This document shows, piece after piece, positions 1,939 through 64,000 of a stretch of DNA of 64,000 nt. The DNA is from Bacteroidota bacterium (GTDB lineage: Bacteria; Bacteroidota; Bacteroidia; Chitinophagales; Chitinophagaceae), in NCBI GenBank assembly GCA_026391455.1, contig JAPLEH010000055.1:1-64000 (forward strand). Direction: 5' to 3'. A program made the translations under genes and the position numbers. The notes beneath the pieces are model-generated. The model did no database searches and had not been told where the DNA came from. It was given only the letters and a program-made list of their open reading frames with translations. Every line of letters starts with the position of its first letter. The stretch's first letter is position 1.

Positions 1939-3339
1939 ATGAGTAAAAGAAAAGCAAAGCAGATCTTGCCATTCGTCCTGTTAGTTGCGGTTGCCATCAT
2001 TGCCATGTTCGTAAAACCAGCGGCTGATTATGTTCCCGGAGCTGCCGATCCTCAGTACAGTTCTTCAGACATTGCCTGGGTGTTAGTTTCCACTGCGCTG
2101 GTATTCTTAATGACACCGGGTCTTGCCTTCTTCTACGGAGGAATGGTAAACCGCAAGAATGTGATCTCCACCATGATCAAAAGTGTGGTGGCTGCCGGAG
2201 TAGTTGGCGTACTCTGGGTGGTATGCGGGTTCAGTCTTGCTTTTGGTGAATCAGTAAATGGGGTGATCGGAAACCCCACTACGTATGCCTTTTACGATGG
2301 AGTGAAATCCGGAGCGGCCTGGCCAGCAGCCAATACGATTCCACTTTCCCTTTTCTCCCTCTTTCAATTGATGTTCGCCATCATTACACCCGGCCTCGTG
2401 GTGGGTGCAGTAGCAGAGCGTATTCGTTTTACTTCGTATGTGCTGTTCATTGTTTTATTTTCATTACTGGTATATGCACCGGTTGCACACTGGAGCTGGC
2501 ATCCGGAAGGGTTCCTGGCTAAAATGGGTGCCTGGGATTTTGCCGGTGGTACTGTAGTGCATATTACTGCCGGTTGTGCCGCCCTGGCCGGAGCTATGGT
2601 TCTTAAGAGAAGAAAATCACATCTTGAAAAAAGAGAGATACCACCGGCAAACGTACCGTATGTACTGATCGGAACCGGTTTGCTCTGGTTCGGATGGTTT
2701 GGTTTCAATGCTGGCTCTGCAGTAGGTGCCACTCCCCTTGCAGTCAATGCATTTGGCACCACCACCACCGCTGCTTCAGCTGCTGGTCTGGCCTGGATGT
2801 TCTTCGATGTAATAAAAGGCAAGAAGCCCTCTGTATTAGGTTTCTGTATCGGTGCGGTTGTTGGATTAGTGGCCATTACACCTGCTGCAGGTTATGTAGG
2901 CATACCTCAAAGTATCATCATTGGTCTGGTTGGTGCTATCGTATCGAATATAGCTGTTAGCATCAAACAAAAATCCACACTGGATGATACACTGGATGTG
3001 TTCCCCTGTCATGGTTTGGGTGGTATGGTTGGTATGTTGCTCACCGGTGTATTTGCGAGCACGGCAGTACATGGTATCAAGGATGGTCCCAATGGTCTTT
3101 TCTATGGCAATCCCCAGTTCTTCTTTACGCAATTGAAGGCCATGGCCATCGTAGTAGCGTACAGTTTCTCTGTTTCCTACGGTATATTCAAGTTCATCAA
3201 TTTTGTTATTCCCATGCGCGTAAGTGAAAGTGAAGAGGAAGAAGGTTTGGATGCTTCACAGCATGATGAAAAATACCTGCAGGGTACTTTACTCGTTCAT
3301 CAGAACGGAGTGATCGTGGAAAAAGCGGCTGAGCATTGA
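1939..3339 (+). CDS. amt: ammonium transporter (Amt/MEP/Rh family)
   Basis: This is an inner-membrane trimeric ammonium channel, about 466 aa from the ATG at 1939. A longer frame from a TTG at 1882 is less likely because a promoter box overlaps that codon. The family signature FFYGGMVNRKN is present. So are both pore histidines: HWSWHPEG, and the late HGLGGMVG within DVFPCHGLGG. About eleven hydrophobic segments follow an N-terminal signal-like helix. Its position next to gltD and an outer-membrane barrel gene suggests a nitrogen-assimilation cluster. No GlnB/GlnK gene, the usual partner, is visible here. Confidence 0.95.
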   Translation: MSKRKAKQILPFVLLVAVAIIAMFVKPAADYVPGAADPQYSSSDIAWVLVSTALVFLMTPGLAFFYGGMVNRKNVISTMIKSVVAAGVVGVLWVVCGFSLAFGESVNGVIGNPTTYAFYDGVKSGAAWPAANTIPLSLFSLFQLMFAIITPGLVVGAVAERIRFTSYVLFIVLFSLLVYAPVAHWSWHPEGFLAKMGAWDFAGGTVVHITAGCAALAGAMVLKRRKSHLEKREIPPANVPYVLIGTGLLWFGWFGFNAGSAVGATPLAVNAFGTTTTAASAAGLAWMFFDVIKGKKPSVLGFCIGAVVGLVAITPAAGYVGIPQSIIIGLVGAIVSNIAVSIKQKSTLDDTLDVFPCHGLGGMVGMLLTGVFASTAVHGIKDGPNGLFYGNPQFFFTQLKAMAIVVAYSFSVSYGIFKFINFVIPMRVSESEEEEGLDASQHDEKYLQGTLLVHQNGVIVEKAAEH

Positions 3340-56623: not shown

Positions 56624-57700
56624 TTAATTGGCATGACTGTCAAACCGGAGATATCGTGGCATGGATCCGGCCTGCTGATTGCTGATGATTAAACAGATAG
56701 TAGCCAATATAAGTTGCAGTGTGGGTGAATACGTTACCCCAAAAACTTTCCAACGATGTTTTCTCCGGTGCTGGTATACTTCACCGGGATTGAGGATGAT
56801 CGGAACATCAAACTTTTTTATGGTACCCTCAAACCAGGCAAGAGGGTTTGCCATCAGGGTCAGATAACTCCCCTTATGTTTGCTGGCGGTTTTCTTAAGC
56901 AGGGCAATACTGGTTTTATAAAACGGGTTTGATTCTTTGTTGAGAATATATTTATCTGTAACATCATCACTGTTGCCCAGATAAAAATGTCTGCTCTTTA
57001 ATAGGTCCAGCATACTATGGGTATACTCTTCTACTGTTGTCCCTTTGGGGGGATTTCGGGCCATCAACGCACAGATTTCATGAAAAACATCGCGGGGCTT
57101 TAAAAAAAGAAGGCTCATATATACTATCAAATGATAATGCTCCATAGTGCTTGCCCCAAGATACTCTGCAGCAACAAGGTAACCATGTGAATATTCAGAA
57201 GAGACACTATCATCAAGTATCGCAATATATTCAATGTGGCGAATTCCTTTATGACTGATTTGCTTTTGTACCAGAAAGGCCTGGCTTTCGATAATTGTGC
57301 GGGAAGTGATCCCATGCGGCCCCCCGGCCTCATCGAGATCGGAAAGCAATTTCATCAATTCAGGCGAAATGGCGGGACATTCTTCAAAAACAGCCTCCAG
57401 CATCAGTGGCATGGTTTTTTTTTCAAAGACCGCCTTATCCGTAATGATCCGCCACACCGGCGTGATCGCCTTCAGAAATTGCGCCACATAATAATAAAGG
57501 TAACCCGTGGTACAAATCTGACAGCAATGAAAAAATTCGTGATAATAGGTTTCATCAATTTCAGCCTTTTCTACTTTTATATATTGCCCCTGTTCAAAGC
57601 GTGCCGAATCGATATTCAGCCGTATTACACCGGTGAACCATTCAAAATAACCCCATACATTTTCGGGCATCTTCAGCACTTTGTCAACATCAATTGGCAT
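56624..57700 (-). CDS. HEFFH metallopeptidase-like protein with C-terminal hydrophobic segment
   Basis: This 358-aa protein is not a recognised family. ETYYHEFFHCCQIC places an HExxH zinc motif at residues 54-58, and a Glu in TIIESQAFLV (E138) could be the third ligand. Near the C-terminus, LQLILATICLIISN (about 328-341) may be a single membrane helix, giving a tail-anchored layout. It is the last gene of the membrane-protein operon, 60 bases after the nuclease gene. Confidence 0.7.
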   Translation of the reverse strand: MPIDVDKVLKMPENVWGYFEWFTGVIRLNIDSARFEQGQYIKVEKAEIDETYYHEFFHCCQICTTGYLYYYVAQFLKAITPVWRIITDKAVFEKKTMPLMLEAVFEECPAISPELMKLLSDLDEAGGPHGITSRTIIESQAFLVQKQISHKGIRHIEYIAILDDSVSSEYSHGYLVAAEYLGASTMEHYHLIVYMSLLFLKPRDVFHEICALMARNPPKGTTVEEYTHSMLDLLKSRHFYLGNSDDVTDKYILNKESNPFYKTSIALLKKTASKHKGSYLTLMANPLAWFEGTIKKFDVPIILNPGEVYQHRRKHRWKVFGVTYSPTLQLILATICLIISNQQAGSMPRYLRFDSHAN

Positions 57701-57760: not shown

Positions 57761-58306
57761 TTACTGCTCTGCCCACATACCGGCTTTTGCTGTACGGGCT
57801 TCTTGCTGAAGCGCAAAGAAATAGTCCGCGTATTTTACATTGGGAGGGACTGTTTCTACCACTGCCATGCCCTGACGCACCAACTCAGCATTCACAAAAA
57901 TAGTATCCGATACATAAACATAGGCCAACAAACGGCCATATTTATCCTTCTTCTGAATATCCGTTTCGATCCGTACTTTCTTTAAATAGATGAGAAGCGA
58001 AAGAAAATCTCTGGCCGCTTTGGCATAAGGGCCTTTTTTGCCGTGTGCATTATCTCTCAGTTCATCTGCGTTAATACCGATAGGACGTATTCTGAACAGT
58101 TTCCCTGTACTATCCGTCATATCAAATGTATCACCATCCACTATATGCACTACAGTATTTTTCTGTAAACTAATCGTGCTTGTACTTCGATTTTCACTGC
58201 GCTTACTGTCTATGACACAGCTTCCCAGCATTATAAACAAAATAATGCATAACAACGTATCGGAGATCAGTCCGGCTATCGTTTGTTTACTTCGCGTATT
58301 GTCCAT
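57761..58306 (-). CDS. SNase (thermonuclease) domain lipoprotein
   Basis: The 181-aa protein has a hydrophobic leader TLLCIILFIMLGSC with a probable acylated Cys30. The SNase fold follows: VVHIVDGDTFDM (53-64, Asp), RIRPIGINADE (72-82, Arg and Glu), DKYGRLLAYV (111-120, Arg). All three catalytic positions of staphylococcal nuclease are kept, so it should be active, outside the cytoplasm if exported. The start overlaps the previous gene by 31 bases. Confidence 0.85.
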   Translation of the reverse strand: MDNTRSKQTIAGLISDTLLCIILFIMLGSCVIDSKRSENRSTSTISLQKNTVVHIVDGDTFDMTDSTGKLFRIRPIGINADELRDNAHGKKGPYAKAARDFLSLLIYLKKVRIETDIQKKDKYGRLLAYVYVSDTIFVNAELVRQGMAVVETVPPNVKYADYFFALQQEARTAKAGMWAEQ

Positions 58307-59118: not shown

Positions 59119-59511
59119 TTAACTCCTGCGTACAGTTTTAAAAAAGAACGATAAGACCAGGACACTCAATAATTGCCAGATCATTACAAAGCTTACAGCA
59201 TCCCACACACTCGAGGGACGCATAAGCATCCACATCAGCAAACCCAGCAGTGAAGAAGCGGCCCCAATCAGTGGGGGATAAAAAAGACTGCCTCCTTTAT
59301 ATTCGAGTCTGTATTCCCGCCAGTTTGATATACTGCCAAGGATGCAGTTTAATGTGTCTTTTACAACTCCCAGCCTATGTGTGAACAGGACAAAGATCAG
59401 CCAGCTCACAATGAAATTACCAAGGTCTTCCCTGTGCACAGGAACTGTTACCTTATATGCAAGTATCCCGGAAGTGATAAAAGAACTACAATAGAGTAAG
59501 AGGCTCAGCAT
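59119..59511 (-). CDS. small polytopic membrane protein
   Basis: The 130-aa protein has about four hydrophobic helices (LLLYCSSFITSGILAY, IVSWLIFVLF, LIGAASSLLGLLMWML, VSFVMIWQLLSVLVLSFF). It lies 22 bases after the OmpA/MotB-like gene. Unrecognised; probably an inner-membrane partner. Confidence 0.65.
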   Translation of the reverse strand: MLSLLLYCSSFITSGILAYKVTVPVHREDLGNFIVSWLIFVLFTHRLGVVKDTLNCILGSISNWREYRLEYKGGSLFYPPLIGAASSLLGLLMWMLMRPSSVWDAVSFVMIWQLLSVLVLSFFFKTVRRS

Positions 59512-59533: not shown

Positions 59534-60202
59534 TTATTTTATATCCCCGATTTTAGGAAAAATTTGAATCAAAAACCGTTGATTATTTTCTTCCATTGCA
59601 GCAGGCAATCTTCCCACACCTCCCCACCCATTGCCGGCGATATGCAAATCAATCAAATCTTTATATTTCGGCGATTCAAAATCGATATAATTTTCCTTCC
59701 AATAACTCCATAAAGTGAGTGCCCGCTTATAACTAAGCTCGTAATTATGATTCCTGTCGGTGTTATCTTTCGAAGCGTAACCTGAAATAACAATAATATA
59801 AGAGACGTTTTTTAATTTACTGTCTGATTCTTTGGCCTTTTTTAAACGGTCCACCACCGTCTTTAACTTGTTTCCGGCATCCACTATTTTTTGCCTTGTT
59901 TCCTCCGGATACAGCAAATGATCATCCTGATCGATATCATACTTATCTTTATTGAATTTAACATCGAAGGCCAGCTTAAACCGTTTATATGCTCCTTCAT
60001 AGGCAAAAAGCAGGGTGTCCGTTTTTAGTGGCTTAAGATTCTCCTCCACCGCTTCAATGATAGATAGCTTTTCCTTTTGCAATTTGATAGTGGTATTCAG
60101 TTTCAGCACAGTGAGTACATAGAGTACCAGCATGACAAAGAAGAGGCTTGTCATGAGATCAGTGAAACTGGGCCAGAAGAAGCCATGAGAAGTATGCTTC
60201 AT
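59534..60202 (-). CDS. MotB/ZorB/OmpA-like stator protein
   Basis: The 222-aa protein has a single N-terminal helix preceded by FFWPSFTDLMTSLFFVML, with an Asp (D15) at the membrane edge as in MotB and ZorB proton-channel plugs. The C-terminal OmpA-like domain shows SGYASKDN and NYELSYKRALTLWSYW (140-168) and a closing NQRFLIQIFPK. It would bind peptidoglycan and form the stator with the TolQ/MotA-like protein encoded two genes upstream. The start overlaps the VWA gene by four bases. Confidence 0.85.
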   Translation of the reverse strand: MKHTSHGFFWPSFTDLMTSLFFVMLVLYVLTVLKLNTTIKLQKEKLSIIEAVEENLKPLKTDTLLFAYEGAYKRFKLAFDVKFNKDKYDIDQDDHLLYPEETRQKIVDAGNKLKTVVDRLKKAKESDSKLKNVSYIIVISGYASKDNTDRNHNYELSYKRALTLWSYWKENYIDFESPKYKDLIDLHIAGNGWGGVGRLPAAMEENNQRFLIQIFPKIGDIK

Positions 60203-62004
60203 TTTTTGCCGGTTATTAAGTACTTTATGAAAAAAATAATCGCAACTGCTGCCAACATCAACATACCGATAACATGTGGCCTTGTTTCAGGATTCAACCA
60301 AACAACTTCAAGTGTATTAAACAAAAGAAAAAACTTCGCAGAAACAAATAGAAAGAAGTATATTTTTGTTCCGATACTCCACTCAAAAAAGCTATCAATC
60401 ATCATTTTACAAAAAAGAATACAGAAAAAGAAAGCCATGAGAAACCAAAACATGTATGAAACAAGTAGTATCTGGCTGCTCGTTTTGGGCAGTACTTCTC
60501 GGAATACAATAGGAAATCTGAATTGTCTGTAATCCTGCGTATCATTTCGACTTACTTCAAGGAAATAATTGCAATCCGAGTTAAAATTATAAGTAATCAT
60601 TTTTTTTGATTGCCAATCTGTATCGAAGGTCATCATAACTGGTTCGTCCACAAAAAGAAACTCATTTTCGCCATCAATGCGGACAAATGTCGTATTATTA
60701 TCGGCCGGGTTACTCGTACGCAGAACCACATTATATGTACCTTTTTCACGAATTTGAATACTACAAAAGGTTGCGTTCAAAGTAGTATTAAACAAAGCAG
60801 GTTTATAAAAATAGGCATATGTCGTGCTGTCCGGAAATCTGTTGTCGATATCATTTGTAAATTTCAGGCTGTTTAAAATCATTTCATATCCAACCGGATC
60901 CTTCATATATTGTTCCGTAACCAGAGGATAATTATAAATGTTATTAAAATTATCATTAAACATTTTTTTTACCATGTAAGAAACACTTTCCTTAAATTTA
61001 TTATCAGAATCCGTTCGGCCTTTTTTGTAGGGATATTGAATAAGGCAAAGCTGGTGAATTTTTGAAAGTATATTTTTTCTGAATTGCTTAACACTGTAAT
61101 CGAATGAGGTGATTTTTTTTTCATGAATAAAATCACTTATAAAGACCACAATTGTATTATTCTTCTGATATCCATGATCGTTCAATACCGTGTTTATTTG
61201 ATTCAAAACGAACACAAGATCAGTGGTATCCAATCTGCTTACTTGATATGAGCGCAAGCTATCCCGATCCTGATCTATTTCATCAATGATCTGATCATCA
61301 TTTTTCGGATCAACATTTGTAAGATTACTTATTTGCCGCAGTGATTTCATTTTATCGTTGCCGAGGTAACAATTCAGCGAAAGATTCACCTCTATATGAG
61401 GATTATACTTCTTAAGTTCATATACACGTTTTACCAAACCCAGCAGAATAATATCATTCAACTTAGTGGCCTCAGTCTCGTTGATGCGCTTCGCTGCAAC
61501 CCGACCTTTGTTTAAATAATCCAGAAACCCCTTACGTAGTACAGATGCCTGCGTTTCAAACTCGGTTGAGGTATCAACAGATGCTGTTTTATCATTTATG
61601 ATTACAAAATTTATCTTCTCCGGGAAATTCAAACCATGGATATCATTCAGGTCCAAGCTTGTTACAATATCATTACTGCTACTTCTCAGTTTTATCTGAT
61701 CGACAGGAAATCGTACGATATCTCTAGTATTAAGCCAATTATAATTCTGCTTTGTATTACTTTTATTTTTATCATACCCAGAAAATATATCTGAATGGAT
61801 ACCAAAAATGAAACAAATTATTATAGTCAAATCCACTAATCCTTTAAACAAAAAACCGATACTCTTTCGCCGTACAATATTGCCCAGTTTATCAAAAAAT
61901 GTATTTCCTTGATCCGCTTTCCAGTTTAAACAGAAAGCTATTATTATTTGCAGAAATACAACAGCTACTACGAATAGAAAACATATGATGTAAGAAGTAT
62001 ACAT
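60199..62004 (-). CDS. membrane-anchored VWA-domain protein
   Basis: The 601-aa protein has two N-terminal helices (about 5-27 and 53-70), a von Willebrand A-like domain, a beta domain (about 395-500) and three C-terminal helices. The metal-binding MIDAS is complete: DKTAS (138-142), T260/T261 next to D262, and D291 in VVFISDFIHE. VWA proteins bind partners through a divalent metal. Here it is encoded between the channel and stator genes, overlapping both (1 and 4 bases), so it is probably a fixed component of the same complex. Confidence 0.78.
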   Translation of the reverse strand: MYTSYIICFLFVVAVVFLQIIIAFCLNWKADQGNTFFDKLGNIVRRKSIGFLFKGLVDLTIIICFIFGIHSDIFSGYDKNKSNTKQNYNWLNTRDIVRFPVDQIKLRSSSNDIVTSLDLNDIHGLNFPEKINFVIINDKTASVDTSTEFETQASVLRKGFLDYLNKGRVAAKRINETEATKLNDIILLGLVKRVYELKKYNPHIEVNLSLNCYLGNDKMKSLRQISNLTNVDPKNDDQIIDEIDQDRDSLRSYQVSRLDTTDLVFVLNQINTVLNDHGYQKNNTIVVFISDFIHEKKITSFDYSVKQFRKNILSKIHQLCLIQYPYKKGRTDSDNKFKESVSYMVKKMFNDNFNNIYNYPLVTEQYMKDPVGYEMILNSLKFTNDIDNRFPDSTTYAYFYKPALFNTTLNATFCSIQIREKGTYNVVLRTSNPADNNTTFVRIDGENEFLFVDEPVMMTFDTDWQSKKMITYNFNSDCNYFLEVSRNDTQDYRQFRFPIVFREVLPKTSSQILLVSYMFWFLMAFFFCILFCKMMIDSFFEWSIGTKIYFFLFVSAKFFLLFNTLEVVWLNPETRPHVIGMLMLAAVAIIFFIKYLITGKK

Positions 62005-63401
62005 TATTTTTTCTTTAACCAGTTTAGAAATCGCTTCCAGTTTCCAACTTTACCAACTTTTATCTCTTTCAATACTTCCACAACAGCGCTCATTTTTGCT
62101 TCAAGATTTTCTATACTTACTTCAATCCTTTTTACCTGACCCGGCATATTTTCCCTTATTACCTTTGCTTCATTTCTCAAATCCTCCAGCAAACCCAGCT
62201 TACCCAATCCCACCCTGTTCTCCTCCATTGCCTTACTCAACAGGTTCTGTTCTGTAACAGTAATATCTTTAATTGCCTGTAGTTTTTGCTCCACGTGTGC
62301 TTTCAGTTGAGTAAGACTGTCATCCAGCACCCTGTCCACGTCAATCACCGCATTTTGTATTAGCCCTCCCCTCGCTTTGATATCTGCAAAATGTGATTTC
62401 AGGAACTGCATCAGTTCGGTATGCAGGGAGAATTGCAGGTCCACATTCCGTGCTATTTCCTCAAAATTGCCGGTACGGGTGAGTATGCCCGTAAACGCTT
62501 CAGATAGTTTTTCTGAAGTGCCCAGCAAAACCGCCATTTTATCGAGGTAGTCATTAAACCGGTCCAGCTTATCTGTACTTTTCCGCAACTCAGACAACAC
62601 CTTGATATTACCTCCAACAAACTGGTTGATATCGATCTCCAGTAATGTGGTGAGAATATTATCCTGTGCTTTCAACGAGTCAAAATTCTTATTCATCATA
62701 ACCTCCAGTCTGCTCAGGCCCATATCAAACCGTTTTGTAAACTCCACCATGTTATTCAGTAACCGTTGCATTACCTCATTTACATTCTTACTCACCAGTG
62801 GCATTAAAGTCGACTGAATAAAATTGTACAGTATATTTTTATTACGCTCTACACGTTGCCTTGCACGGCTGAAAATATAGCTGGAATTGATTACGGTAAA
62901 TGCGATTCCGGTAAAACTGGCAATCATGGCAATCTTCACACCGCCTAGCAATCCCCCGATACCAGCTCCTAGCGCATCGCTTGTGCCAGGCTCGTTCATT
63001 GTTTCGGATAGTGAACTCATATTCCAGAGACCGGCTACTATCCCGCACATTGTTCCCATCAGACCAAGATAGAGGGGTACCGAAACCGTATGGCTGATCT
63101 GCTCCTCCAGCACACCTGTATTGCGCTCCACGATATCCTTTACAAGATTGAAGTCTGGCGAGCCGGTACTGTTACGGGATAAATACTCATTAACAGAACC
63201 GATAAGCTCCTTGCGACCTTCGTTTAACTCTTCATCCATACCTTCGTAAGCTACCGTAACCTGCCCCGGTACCAGCATAAACTCTTCCGGTAAAAGTTTG
63301 CGGTATTTACGTACCCGTACTATGGTGATGAAAAAAGATATGCACTGCAATGCGATCACTACAGCCACCAATCCGTATTCGAGTGTTTCCAGATTATTCA
63401 T
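62004..63401 (-). CDS. TolQ/MotA/ZorA-like proton-channel protein with long cytoplasmic tail
   Basis: The 465-aa protein has TM1 at about 8-30, TM2 at 106-127 with the family motif LGLMGTMCGIVAGLW, and TM3 at 143-177 (GAGIGGLLGGVKIAMIASFTGI). These are the pore helices of MotA/TolQ/ExbB. After residue 180 a helical tail of about 285 residues extends into the cytoplasm, as in ZorA, whose long tail is a hallmark. No ZorC/ZorD/ZorE gene is seen next to it. It overlaps the upstream coiled-coil gene by eight bases. Confidence 0.85.
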   Translation of the reverse strand: MNNLETLEYGLVAVVIALQCISFFITIVRVRKYRKLLPEEFMLVPGQVTVAYEGMDEELNEGRKELIGSVNEYLSRNSTGSPDFNLVKDIVERNTGVLEEQISHTVSVPLYLGLMGTMCGIVAGLWNMSSLSETMNEPGTSDALGAGIGGLLGGVKIAMIASFTGIAFTVINSSYIFSRARQRVERNKNILYNFIQSTLMPLVSKNVNEVMQRLLNNMVEFTKRFDMGLSRLEVMMNKNFDSLKAQDNILTTLLEIDINQFVGGNIKVLSELRKSTDKLDRFNDYLDKMAVLLGTSEKLSEAFTGILTRTGNFEEIARNVDLQFSLHTELMQFLKSHFADIKARGGLIQNAVIDVDRVLDDSLTQLKAHVEQKLQAIKDITVTEQNLLSKAMEENRVGLGKLGLLEDLRNEAKVIRENMPGQVKRIEVSIENLEAKMSAVVEVLKEIKVGKVGNWKRFLNWLKKK

Positions 63402-64000
63402 ATGCTATAATTGCCGGTTTTTCAATGATCCACTCCCCACCTTCCAGCACTGCAATGCCTGGTGTTATCGTCTTTACTCTTTTGGCATTCGACGCCTCCC
63501 CTTTTACTTCACACGCATGATGGAGGTACGCCTCCGGAAAGGTCAGGATTGAATCCACCACACGGGGGATCGGGATCAACTCGAATGAAGCTTTATGTGC
63601 GTTCTCTTTACTGATCATAAACTGATAAATGGAAAAAATCTGTATCACATGATTTCCTGCAGATTCACTGAATCTTCCGCTGATCTTACCAGGTGGTGGA
63701 AAATAAAGGATGCGCTCCTTCTCCTTCAGTATAATAGGCTCCTGCTTATTGTATGGAGCGGCAGGAGTTTTACTCTCCTGCCTTCCTTCCGGGCGCGTAG
63801 TTACAGAATTGCCTTCCAAGGCTATCAATTTCGCATATACTTTTTTAAACTTTTCAGCAGTATTGTTTTCATTTGCTTCGATTGTCAGTAATTTCTGGTC
63901 ATACTGTTTTATTTTTTTCTCCTGATCCATTACTTTTGCCTGCAGAATTGCCAGGCTCTTCTCTATTTTAATAACTTGCCCATCTCCTGTTACACGTGAA
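63394..64000 (-). CDS. coiled-coil protein with conserved C-terminal domain (5' end outside window)
   Basis: The frame is open to the window edge. An internal Met at 63930 is not a reliable start because the coiled coil (KIEKSLAILQAKVMDQEKK and onward) continues upstream of it. The C-terminal 100 residues form a compact beta domain (ILYFPPPGKISGRFSESAGN, FELIPIPRVVDSIL, VKTITPGIAVLEGGEWIIEK). No nuclease or ATPase motif is visible in the present part. It leads the tightly overlapping four-gene block and may be the sensor or effector-coupling component. The family is not recognised. Confidence 0.7.
   Translation of the reverse strand, partial: SRVTGDGQVIKIEKSLAILQAKVMDQEKKIKQYDQKLLTIEANENNTAEKFKKVYAKLIALEGNSVTTRPEGRQESKTPAAPYNKQEPIILKEKERILYFPPPGKISGRFSESAGNHVIQIFSIYQFMISKENAHKASFELIPIPRVVDSILTFPEAYLHHACEVKGEASNAKRVKTITPGIAVLEGGEWIIEKPAIIAYE

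Follow-up and report, generated by a model that had tools for sequence, protein, structure and literature searches.

A Bacteroidota operon joining a ZorA/ZorB-like motor to actin-like and tubulin-like NTPases and exported hydrolases, a candidate envelope defence system

Introduction

What kind of machine is encoded where a Zorya-like motor pair encloses a membrane-bound vWA protein, and is the machine complete? The question is raised by a 64,000-nucleotide stretch of a Bacteroidota genome (assembly GCA_026391455.1, contig JAPLEH010000055.1, positions 1 to 64,000; this whole stretch is called the window below), at the right end of which a first-pass annotation had recognized four overlapping genes and proposed them as an undescribed system. 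Extension of the contig past 64000 revealed these genes to be the 3' part of a longer minus-strand operon with the gene order VWL-TM3-TUB-ACT-CC-ZorA-(VWA)-ZorB. The overlap of the genes was confirmed, while the self-contained four-gene system is rejected, as the operon continues past the window end and adds a second coiled-coil protein (CC429), an actin-like ATPase (ACT), a tubulin-like GTPase of the FtsZl1/Tubulin_2 type (TUB), a protein with three transmembrane (TM) segments (TM3), and a vWA-like lipoprotein (VWL). This composition is put forward with high confidence. As to function, we favour a machine that spans the envelope and, most likely, acts against phages or other invaders, and we give this reading an even chance of being right.

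Operons of FtsZl1, vWA, and OmpA-family genes were predicted in 2010 by Makarova and Koonin to form a membrane-remodelling system (PMC2875224), in an article whose accessible part also shows Bacteroides caccae in the FtsZl1 alignment and raises the puzzle of how FtsZl1, a cytoplasmic protein, cooperates with OmpA and vWA partners located beyond the inner membrane. In the present operon the OmpA-domain protein resembles the B subunit of a motor in the inner membrane, a role that would resolve this puzzle. The operon also makes the function of FtsZl1, the question raised in 2010, directly testable. It is unusual for one conserved operon to combine proteins that resemble actin, tubulin, and ion motors.

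Composition and Distribution of the Operon

A scan of 84,980 species genomes by peptide patterns from a TUB alignment found at least 239 relatives, of which the best 80 were kept, so that the frequencies given here lean to near relatives. Together with the present locus and three others (L013, L015, and L016) they make up 84 loci, related to one another and therefore, like the locus pairs compared below, not independent, in which the parts were recognized by iterated profiles seeded with the proteins of the present locus; L012 and L014 were excluded as duplicates of L051 and L058, and the TUB gene of L013, dropped in open reading frame cleaning, is nevertheless present. By their record titles the relatives are mostly Bacteroidota, with two Leptospiraceae and single metagenome-assembled genomes labelled Williamsia, Oscillibacter, and Acetatifactor. 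TUB was found in 83 of the 84 loci, ACT in 82, TM3 in 78, VWL in 77, CC in 65-66, ZorA in 63, ZorB in 55, and a staphylococcal-nuclease-family protein (SNase) in 15. When the count is confined to 60 long loci (at least 8.5 kb after and at least 2.5 kb before TUB), ACT is present in 60, VWL and TM3 in 58 each, CC in 55, ZorA in 54, and ZorB in 47, both motor genes occurring together in 47.

A separate sample consisted of 392 genomes of the phylum, the present one included, with thresholds of E ≤ 1e-5 for TUB and E ≤ 1e-10 for the ZorA clade (ZorA profile of 24 rows from known loci). TUB was found in 12 genomes. Six have a member of the ZorA clade, and in each of them ZorA shares a contig with TUB at a distance of ~25 bases to 6.3 kb; one of these six genomes (G397) is 13% contaminated and has a stop inside TUB. 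Among the 11 TUB loci other than the present one ZorA accompanies TUB in 6, including the remote TUB locus L175; in L171 and L173 CC is followed by a protein of unassigned family, and L166 ends at the contig end. The TUB query in 97 relatives gave matches in 0 of 41 congeners; 16 genomes from the rest of the family yielded 4 matches (three at 44–49% identity, one at 33% over residues 1–305), and 39 from the rest of the order a single remote one (25%). The first-pass annotation had allowed for a universally conserved housekeeping locus, which is rejected by the 0 of 41 congeners and the 12 of 392 phylum genomes. Plasmid records with a TUB relative number six, namely, a 1.8-Mb Prevotella replicon and five cyanobacterial plasmids, among which the Gloeothece verrucosa plasmid (L142, 6881-16788) carries TUB-ACT and, on the opposite strand, a VWL-like gene, with no recognized motor. 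Two further proteins of unassigned family stand behind ACT on this plasmid.

The ZorA/ZorB-Like Motor Pair

The reading of the pair as ZorA-like and ZorB-like with a membrane Asp15 was borne out by profile matches and residue conservation. The ZorA-like protein matches MotA_ExbB with E 0.015, which is under the Pfam cut-off, and the PADLOC ZorA model with 4.2e-7, and the ZorB-like protein matches OmpA with E 1.5e-5, slightly under the curated cut-off, and PADLOC ZorB with 1.5e-13; a search of solved structures with ZorB alone returned a single weak MotB match (E 0.055). In ZorB Asp15 is kept in 98% and the peptidoglycan-site residues in 93–98% of the proteins (n = 56). The ZorA tail comprises 304 residues past the last TM segment, and its profile matches coiled-coil chains. 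According to these features the pair would be an ion-driven motor in which a ZorA channel surrounds the peptidoglycan-binding ZorB. Since Zorya requires the ZorB ion-path Asp, ZorB peptidoglycan binding, and the ZorA tail, as the accessible part of the corresponding study reports (PMC11890865), and these parts are present or likely here, the operon could work like Zorya.

With the family ZorA profile 11 reference ZorA proteins scored 12.7–36.8 bits against 14.2 for TolQ, 6.2 for MotA, and 3.2 for ExbB, and thus outscored MotA and ExbB in 11 of 11 cases and TolQ in 10 of 11, while the ZorB profile gave only 0.6 bits for ExbD and -1.3 bits for TolR. Among the references, Zorya annotation (type II) exists only for ZorA2 of the E. 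coli plasmid; the other ten were chosen by an adjoining strong ZorB-model or tblastn match, and the set holds no checked type I with ZorC/ZorD. In the tree (46 rows, 162 columns; 30 of 62 family rows used) the 11 references group in a single long-stemmed clade (support 100), and the family of the operon stands outside it. The branch separating family and references from TolQ/ExbB/MotA has a support of 92, which is not significant. Grouping of the family with TolQ/ExbB, which had been named beforehand as an outcome that would refute the candidate system, is not the best tree, yet it is not statistically rejected either (approximately unbiased test, p 0.33).

The absence of ZorC, ZorD, and ZorE, claimed from the window, was confirmed insofar as none of ZorC, ZorD, ZorE, ZorF, and ZorG gave a PADLOC match among 17 queries (16 genes) of the locus, remote forms being possible. 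Because the ZorA stands outside the Zorya clade and ZorC–G are unrecognized, the locus is not filed as Zorya. A PADLOC ZorB match as proof of Zorya was rejected as well: the ZorB1 model PDLC00609 matches 373 of the 392 phylum genomes at E ≤ 1e-3, and its loose use would overcall Zorya. As a separate observation, phylum-genome loci L132–L139 carry ZorA-ZorB with a third gene of ~200–280 amino acids, some of them, judged by eye, near restriction- or helicase-like genes.

Actin-Like and Tubulin-Like NTPases

Two proteins encoded upstream of the motor genes bear the marks of nucleoside triphosphatases (NTPases). ACT contains D585-x-G-T-x-N, D807-x-G-G-G-T-x-D, and S954-G-N-G, which we take to be the phosphate-1, phosphate-2, and adenosine blocks of the actin superfamily ATPases; D585, G587, and T588, D807 to D814, and S954 and G955 are conserved in 97–100% of the sequences (n = 69). 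Profile matches of ACT to MreB, Hsp70, and FtsA are weak (best E 0.0045), and its likeness to SrfB spans 17 residues only.

In TUB the GGTG loop (G185–G188) is invariant (100%, n = 83). Tubulin_2 (PF13809) was matched with E < 0.002 by four of five TUB-family rows scanned, two of them (L054 and a cyanobacterial homologue) above the cut-off, and the present TUB reaches 26.0 bits at a cut-off of 27. TUB is ~25% identical to cyanobacterial tubulin-like proteins. Searched against solved structures, the profiles of TUB and VWL gave no useful match.

Membrane and Periplasmic Parts

The protein inserted between ZorA and ZorB, VWA, was confirmed as a membrane protein: it has five TM segments, a supported vWA fold (~residues 127–366), and a motif of the metal-ion-dependent adhesion site (MIDAS) type, and its domain is predicted by the positive-inside rule to face the periplasm. 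It is, however, not the fixed part of the set that it had been taken for. The insert occurs in 4 of 84 loci (three by profile, L034 by TM layout and alignment), and VWA as a defining part is therefore rejected. A single-sequence VWA search of 97 genomes matched the own genome only, and hhalign of VWL against VWA gave a probability of 1.3. CC423 consists of an N-terminal domain taken as periplasmic, a TM segment (192–210), a coiled-coil-like stretch, and a C-terminal domain.

Residues of the motor, the NTPases, the lipobox, and the MIDAS-type motif are conserved across loci. Divergence of whole proteins was compared in 104 locus pairs with TUB identity of 60–97% (mean 72%), or in fewer pairs where a part is missing. 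At this TUB identity the mean for CC is 37% and for its first 120 residues 30% (53 pairs), followed by VWL with 50% (69 pairs), ZorA with 57% (47), TM3 with 60% (88), ACT with 63% (56), proteases with 67% (21), and ZorB with 70% (37). Between the present locus and L017 VWA is 23% identical, TUB 74%, and ZorB 76%. The variable parts appear to be mainly periplasmic, as would be expected of sensors under attack.

Exported Hydrolases behind ZorB

The SNase lipoprotein that sits behind ZorB after two small proteins had not been linked to the four genes in the first-pass annotation. It matches the PADLOC candidate model C3a212 'SNc+LTD' with 1.3e-19, and its relatives follow the operon in 14 further loci, in 12 of them with the usual GID[TAS]PE-type motif.

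ZorB is followed by 1.5 kb or more of sequence in 50 loci; any of five hydrolase families was present in 40 of them, a nuclease in 24, and a protease together with a nuclease in 14. The first same-strand gene within 400 bases after ZorB encodes an aspartyl protease in 15 of these loci, a trypsin-like protease in 15, Endonuclease_NS in 5, SNase in 3, another protein in 6, and in the own genome the 130-residue protein, while 5 loci have no such gene. Many hydrolase genes overlap the preceding gene by a few bases. Downstream versus upstream positions are 15:0 for SNase, 38:1 for proteases, 8:0 for Endonuclease_NS, and 6:0 for the Exo_endo_phos family (EEP), the nuclease-bearing loci being 15 with SNase, 8 with Endonuclease_NS, and 5 with EEP. 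Aspartyl and trypsin-like proteases occur together in one locus only, and SNase and Endonuclease_NS in none. Hydrolase profiles had 0 matches in 375 control genes (20 stretches of 20 kb), where the trypsin-like set was searched only within a mixed protease profile.

The aspartyl protease is retropepsin-like, with DTG[AS] in 19 of 19 sequences and a gag-asp_proteas match of 2.7e-14 in one member; the trypsin-like protease has a GxSGG-type motif in 16 of 20 and matches Trypsin_2 with 2.1e-23 (one member). Single members of the remaining families gave 4.4e-51 for Endonuclease_NS and 2.6e-12 for Exo_endo_phos. Assignment of 38 loci to a single trypsin-like family was rejected as a merger of the trypsin-like and retropepsin-like families by single linkage. 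By simple criteria an N-terminal signal-like segment is found in 35 of 39 proteases, 8 of 8 Endonuclease_NS, 5 of 6 EEP, and 12 of 15 SNase proteins, and many of the downstream hydrolases resemble lipoproteins and would then be tethered. That exported proteases and nucleases replace one another at the 3' end of the operon suggests a periplasmic effector arm.

Proposed Function and Alternatives

From these parts we infer complex formation, motor action, sensing, activation, and a role in defence. In the cytoplasm the machine would comprise the FtsZl1-type GTPase and the actin-like ATPase; in the membrane, the ZorA-like channel round the ZorB-like Asp15 subunit, the three-TM protein, and the membrane-crossing coiled-coil proteins; in the periplasm, the vWA lipoprotein, the exported hydrolases, and, in the present locus, additionally the vWA membrane protein. 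Envelope disturbance may be sensed by the fast-evolving periplasmic domains (CC N-terminus and VWA). With ZorB holding the peptidoglycan, ion flow would turn or shift the ZorA tail, and this movement would be coupled to the actin-like and tubulin-like NTPases. As a result, periplasmic effectors would be activated locally, namely, an aspartyl or trypsin-like protease together with a nuclease of the SNase, Endonuclease_NS, or EEP family, in the present locus putatively the SNase lipoprotein, and their targets could be incoming DNA or particles or the own cell. A bolder version, which we consider possible but rather doubtful, is a new class of bacterial immunity at the envelope: a rotary ion motor, joined in one complex to actin-like and tubulin-like NTPases, would fire a periplasmic protease-nuclease relay with interchangeable enzymes, and phage DNA would be destroyed before it reaches the cytoplasm.

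Several observations weigh against an anti-phage machine of this kind. Neither ZorA nor ZorB is present in 6 of the 60 long loci, and the motor is thus not essential to the operon; L169, from the sample of 392 genomes, consists of VWL-TM3-TUB-ACT-CC with an aspartyl protease directly after it and no motor, and owing to such motor-free loci the VWL-TM3-TUB-ACT-CC set is regarded as the core and the motor as a frequent module. The five hydrolase families are absent from 10 of the 50 loci. In the present locus no protease was recognized beside the SNase, and the SNase itself reads GINADE instead of the GID[TAS]PE-type motif, a deviation that leaves the activity of this candidate effector putative. 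Low conservation of CC and VWA equally fits relaxed constraint, and filament formation by ACT or TUB is putative. A PADLOC scan covered 140 of the 315 genes in the flanks and 140 of the 259 controls and gave 168 matching families for the former and 26 for the latter; with families counted, each listed with no more than 3 proteins and with no totals of matching proteins, it showed no clear defence-island enrichment of the flanks. Finally, 50,697 phage records contained no TUB relative, and one was found in viral contigs.

Other functions were weighed against the same data. A membrane-remodelling or vesicle machine, in which polymers shape the membrane, the motor pulls the envelope, and the hydrolases are cargo or clean-up, is unlikely, although the accessible part of PMC2875224 predicts remodelling for just such a GTPase of the FtsZl1 type accompanied by vWA and OmpA-type proteins, actin-like and tubulin-like proteins occur together, some loci have the core without the motor, and relatives of TUB, ACT, and VWL are found without a recognized motor on a cyanobacterial plasmid. 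The patchiness of the operon, its recombinase-like neighbours (a tyrosine-recombinase-like gene adjoins it in 6 loci and lies farther off in 2 more, as read from the sequence with no family search), and the exchange of nucleases and proteases would be odd for such a role, which offers the nucleases no obvious task. The exported hydrolases could also be secreted weapons, or be used with a contractile injection system, since a locus of the extracellular contractile injection system (eCIS) type (window 23000-55200; phage sheath, Pvc16_N) lies beside the operon and sheath-type genes adjoin it in the sister locus L017 (2-6674) too. This export or antagonism machine is quite improbable: the arrangement in L017 is opposite and its eCIS proteins are strongly diverged, the remaining loci of the 84 gave no sheath match in flanks of up to 10 kb, and many effectors are lipoprotein-like and hence tethered.

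Import powered by a motor of the TolQ/ExbB/MotA superfamily would likewise account for exported hydrolases, which would then digest external DNA or protein for uptake or scavenging. We regard this as very improbable, because among the 19 gene clusters that span 3 or more loci, judged by eye, there is a single TonB-receptor-like cluster (4 loci, scattered positions) and none that is competence-like, and ZorB has a peptidoglycan-binding domain and a profile that scarcely scores ExbD and TolR. Least credible to us is a further Zorya type, that is, true Zorya ZorA/ZorB with new effectors; the preference of the ZorA profile for reference ZorA, the shared side of the tree with its non-significant support, a ZorB predicted to bind peptidoglycan, and the tail of ZorA are in its favour, but the reference clade on its long stem excludes the family of the operon, and ZorC–G are unrecognized. 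An anti-phage role of an envelope-spanning machine remains the preferred reading.

Gene Features and Neighbourhood

The genes of the operon and those in the same-strand run behind it are collected in Table 1.

Table 1. Features of the operon and adjoining genes (window positions unless marked as contig; TM, transmembrane segment; aa, amino acids).
Feature	Position	Strand	Basis or remark
SN, 181-aa staphylococcal-nuclease-family lipoprotein	57761..58306	-	lipobox-like MLGSC; PF00565 E 8.6e-23
199-aa protein, N-terminal TM segment	58501..59100	-	same-strand run behind ZorB; no Pfam match
130-aa two-TM protein	59119..59511	-	starts 22 bases past ZorB; no Pfam match
ZorB/MotB-like protein, one TM with Asp15 and OmpA-like peptidoglycan-binding domain	59534..60202	-	OmpA, PADLOC ZorB
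VWA, five-TM protein with vWA domain	60199..62004	-	vWA fold supported, TM layout
ZorA-like MotA/TolQ/ExbB-superfamily protein, long cytoplasmic tail	62004..63401	-	MotA_ExbB, PADLOC ZorA
CC423, 3' part in window	63394..64000	-	whole gene reaches contig position 64665
CC429, related to CC423	contig 64706-65995	-	weak PADLOC PD-Lambda-1 match 3.8e-4
ACT, 1173-aa actin/Hsp70-superfamily ATPase	contig 66014-69535	-	nucleotide-site motifs
TUB, 493-aa FtsZl1/Tubulin_2-type GTPase	contig 69539-71020	-	GIGGTGSR, FGGTGAAG
TM3, 131-aa three-TM protein	contig 71069-71464	-	
VWL, vWA-like lipoprotein	contig 71470-73083	-	lipobox Cys60, ENSxSMxGY, likely start Met38; conservation and model of homologue
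Zinc-ribbon protein, 221 aa, one TM	contig 73052-73717	-	in 1/84 loci

Several neighbouring genes were observed in addition. On the minus strand of the window a 358-residue protein (56624-57700) is encoded between the SNase and a LuxR-like gene, and its relatives are two genes in the flank of L029. In the right flank a minus-strand gene (contig 75079-75999) has weak HNH and PADLOC SAVED/HNH-type effector matches and may be a further defence gene. In L013 a TIR-domain protein (2424-3233) is encoded directly before the vWA lipoprotein of a motor-free core operon, and L015 (6108-16000) has a remote TUB-ACT cassette behind which a TerD-domain protein and a look-alike of it take the place of the motor.

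Comparison with Known Systems

In the open-access literature (preprints and supplements lay outside the scope), judged by titles, term counts, and the openings of abstracts, no link of FtsZl1-type proteins with ZorAB or MotA was found; Zorya and SrfB were not found together, and Zorya, MotA, and vWA only in PMC12204202. Known from this literature, as far as its accessible parts go, are the FtsZl1-vWA-OmpA operons, which are predicted only; the motor, the actin-like partner, and the exchange of effectors were not found there. The present operon shares with those operons the combination of an FtsZl1/Tubulin_2-type GTPase, a vWA protein, and an OmpA-domain protein, here ZorB-like, in one operon, and differs by its MotA/ZorA, actin-like ATPase, and protease or nuclease partners, which the accessible part of PMC2875224 does not name. 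The operons described there often, though not obligatorily, include kinases and a P-loop GTPase, whereas the present one has no such Pfam match.

In 2025 vWA proteins encoded with TolQ-like motor genes were predicted to couple the proton motive force to mechanical force (PMC12204202), and the encoding of a vWA protein with motor genes is common to these force transducers and the present operon. As far as the accessible part of that study shows, its vWA proteins have either an SHLS helix or their own Asp-bearing pore helix replacing TolR, while the five-TM vWA protein of the present operon is encoded next to a complete ZorB-like subunit and to actin-like and tubulin-like genes; on inspection of the sequence no SHLS letters occur in TM segments 1 and 2 of VWA, no dedicated search having been made. 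With the MotAB and TolQR/ExbBD stators the pair shares the superfamily and key residues, but it has a long tail, a peptidoglycan-binding B subunit unlike TolR/ExbD, and another operon.

A further comparison is with Zorya types I–III, which have likewise a ZorA-like channel with a cytoplasmic tail and a ZorB-like subunit with the ion-path Asp and a peptidoglycan-binding domain. The operon departs from Zorya in the separate clade of its ZorA and the unrecognized ZorC/D/E/F/G, and it adds exported effectors, actin-like and tubulin-like NTPases, and vWA proteins. If the proposed function is true, the motor-based logic of Zorya would be extended beyond Zorya itself.

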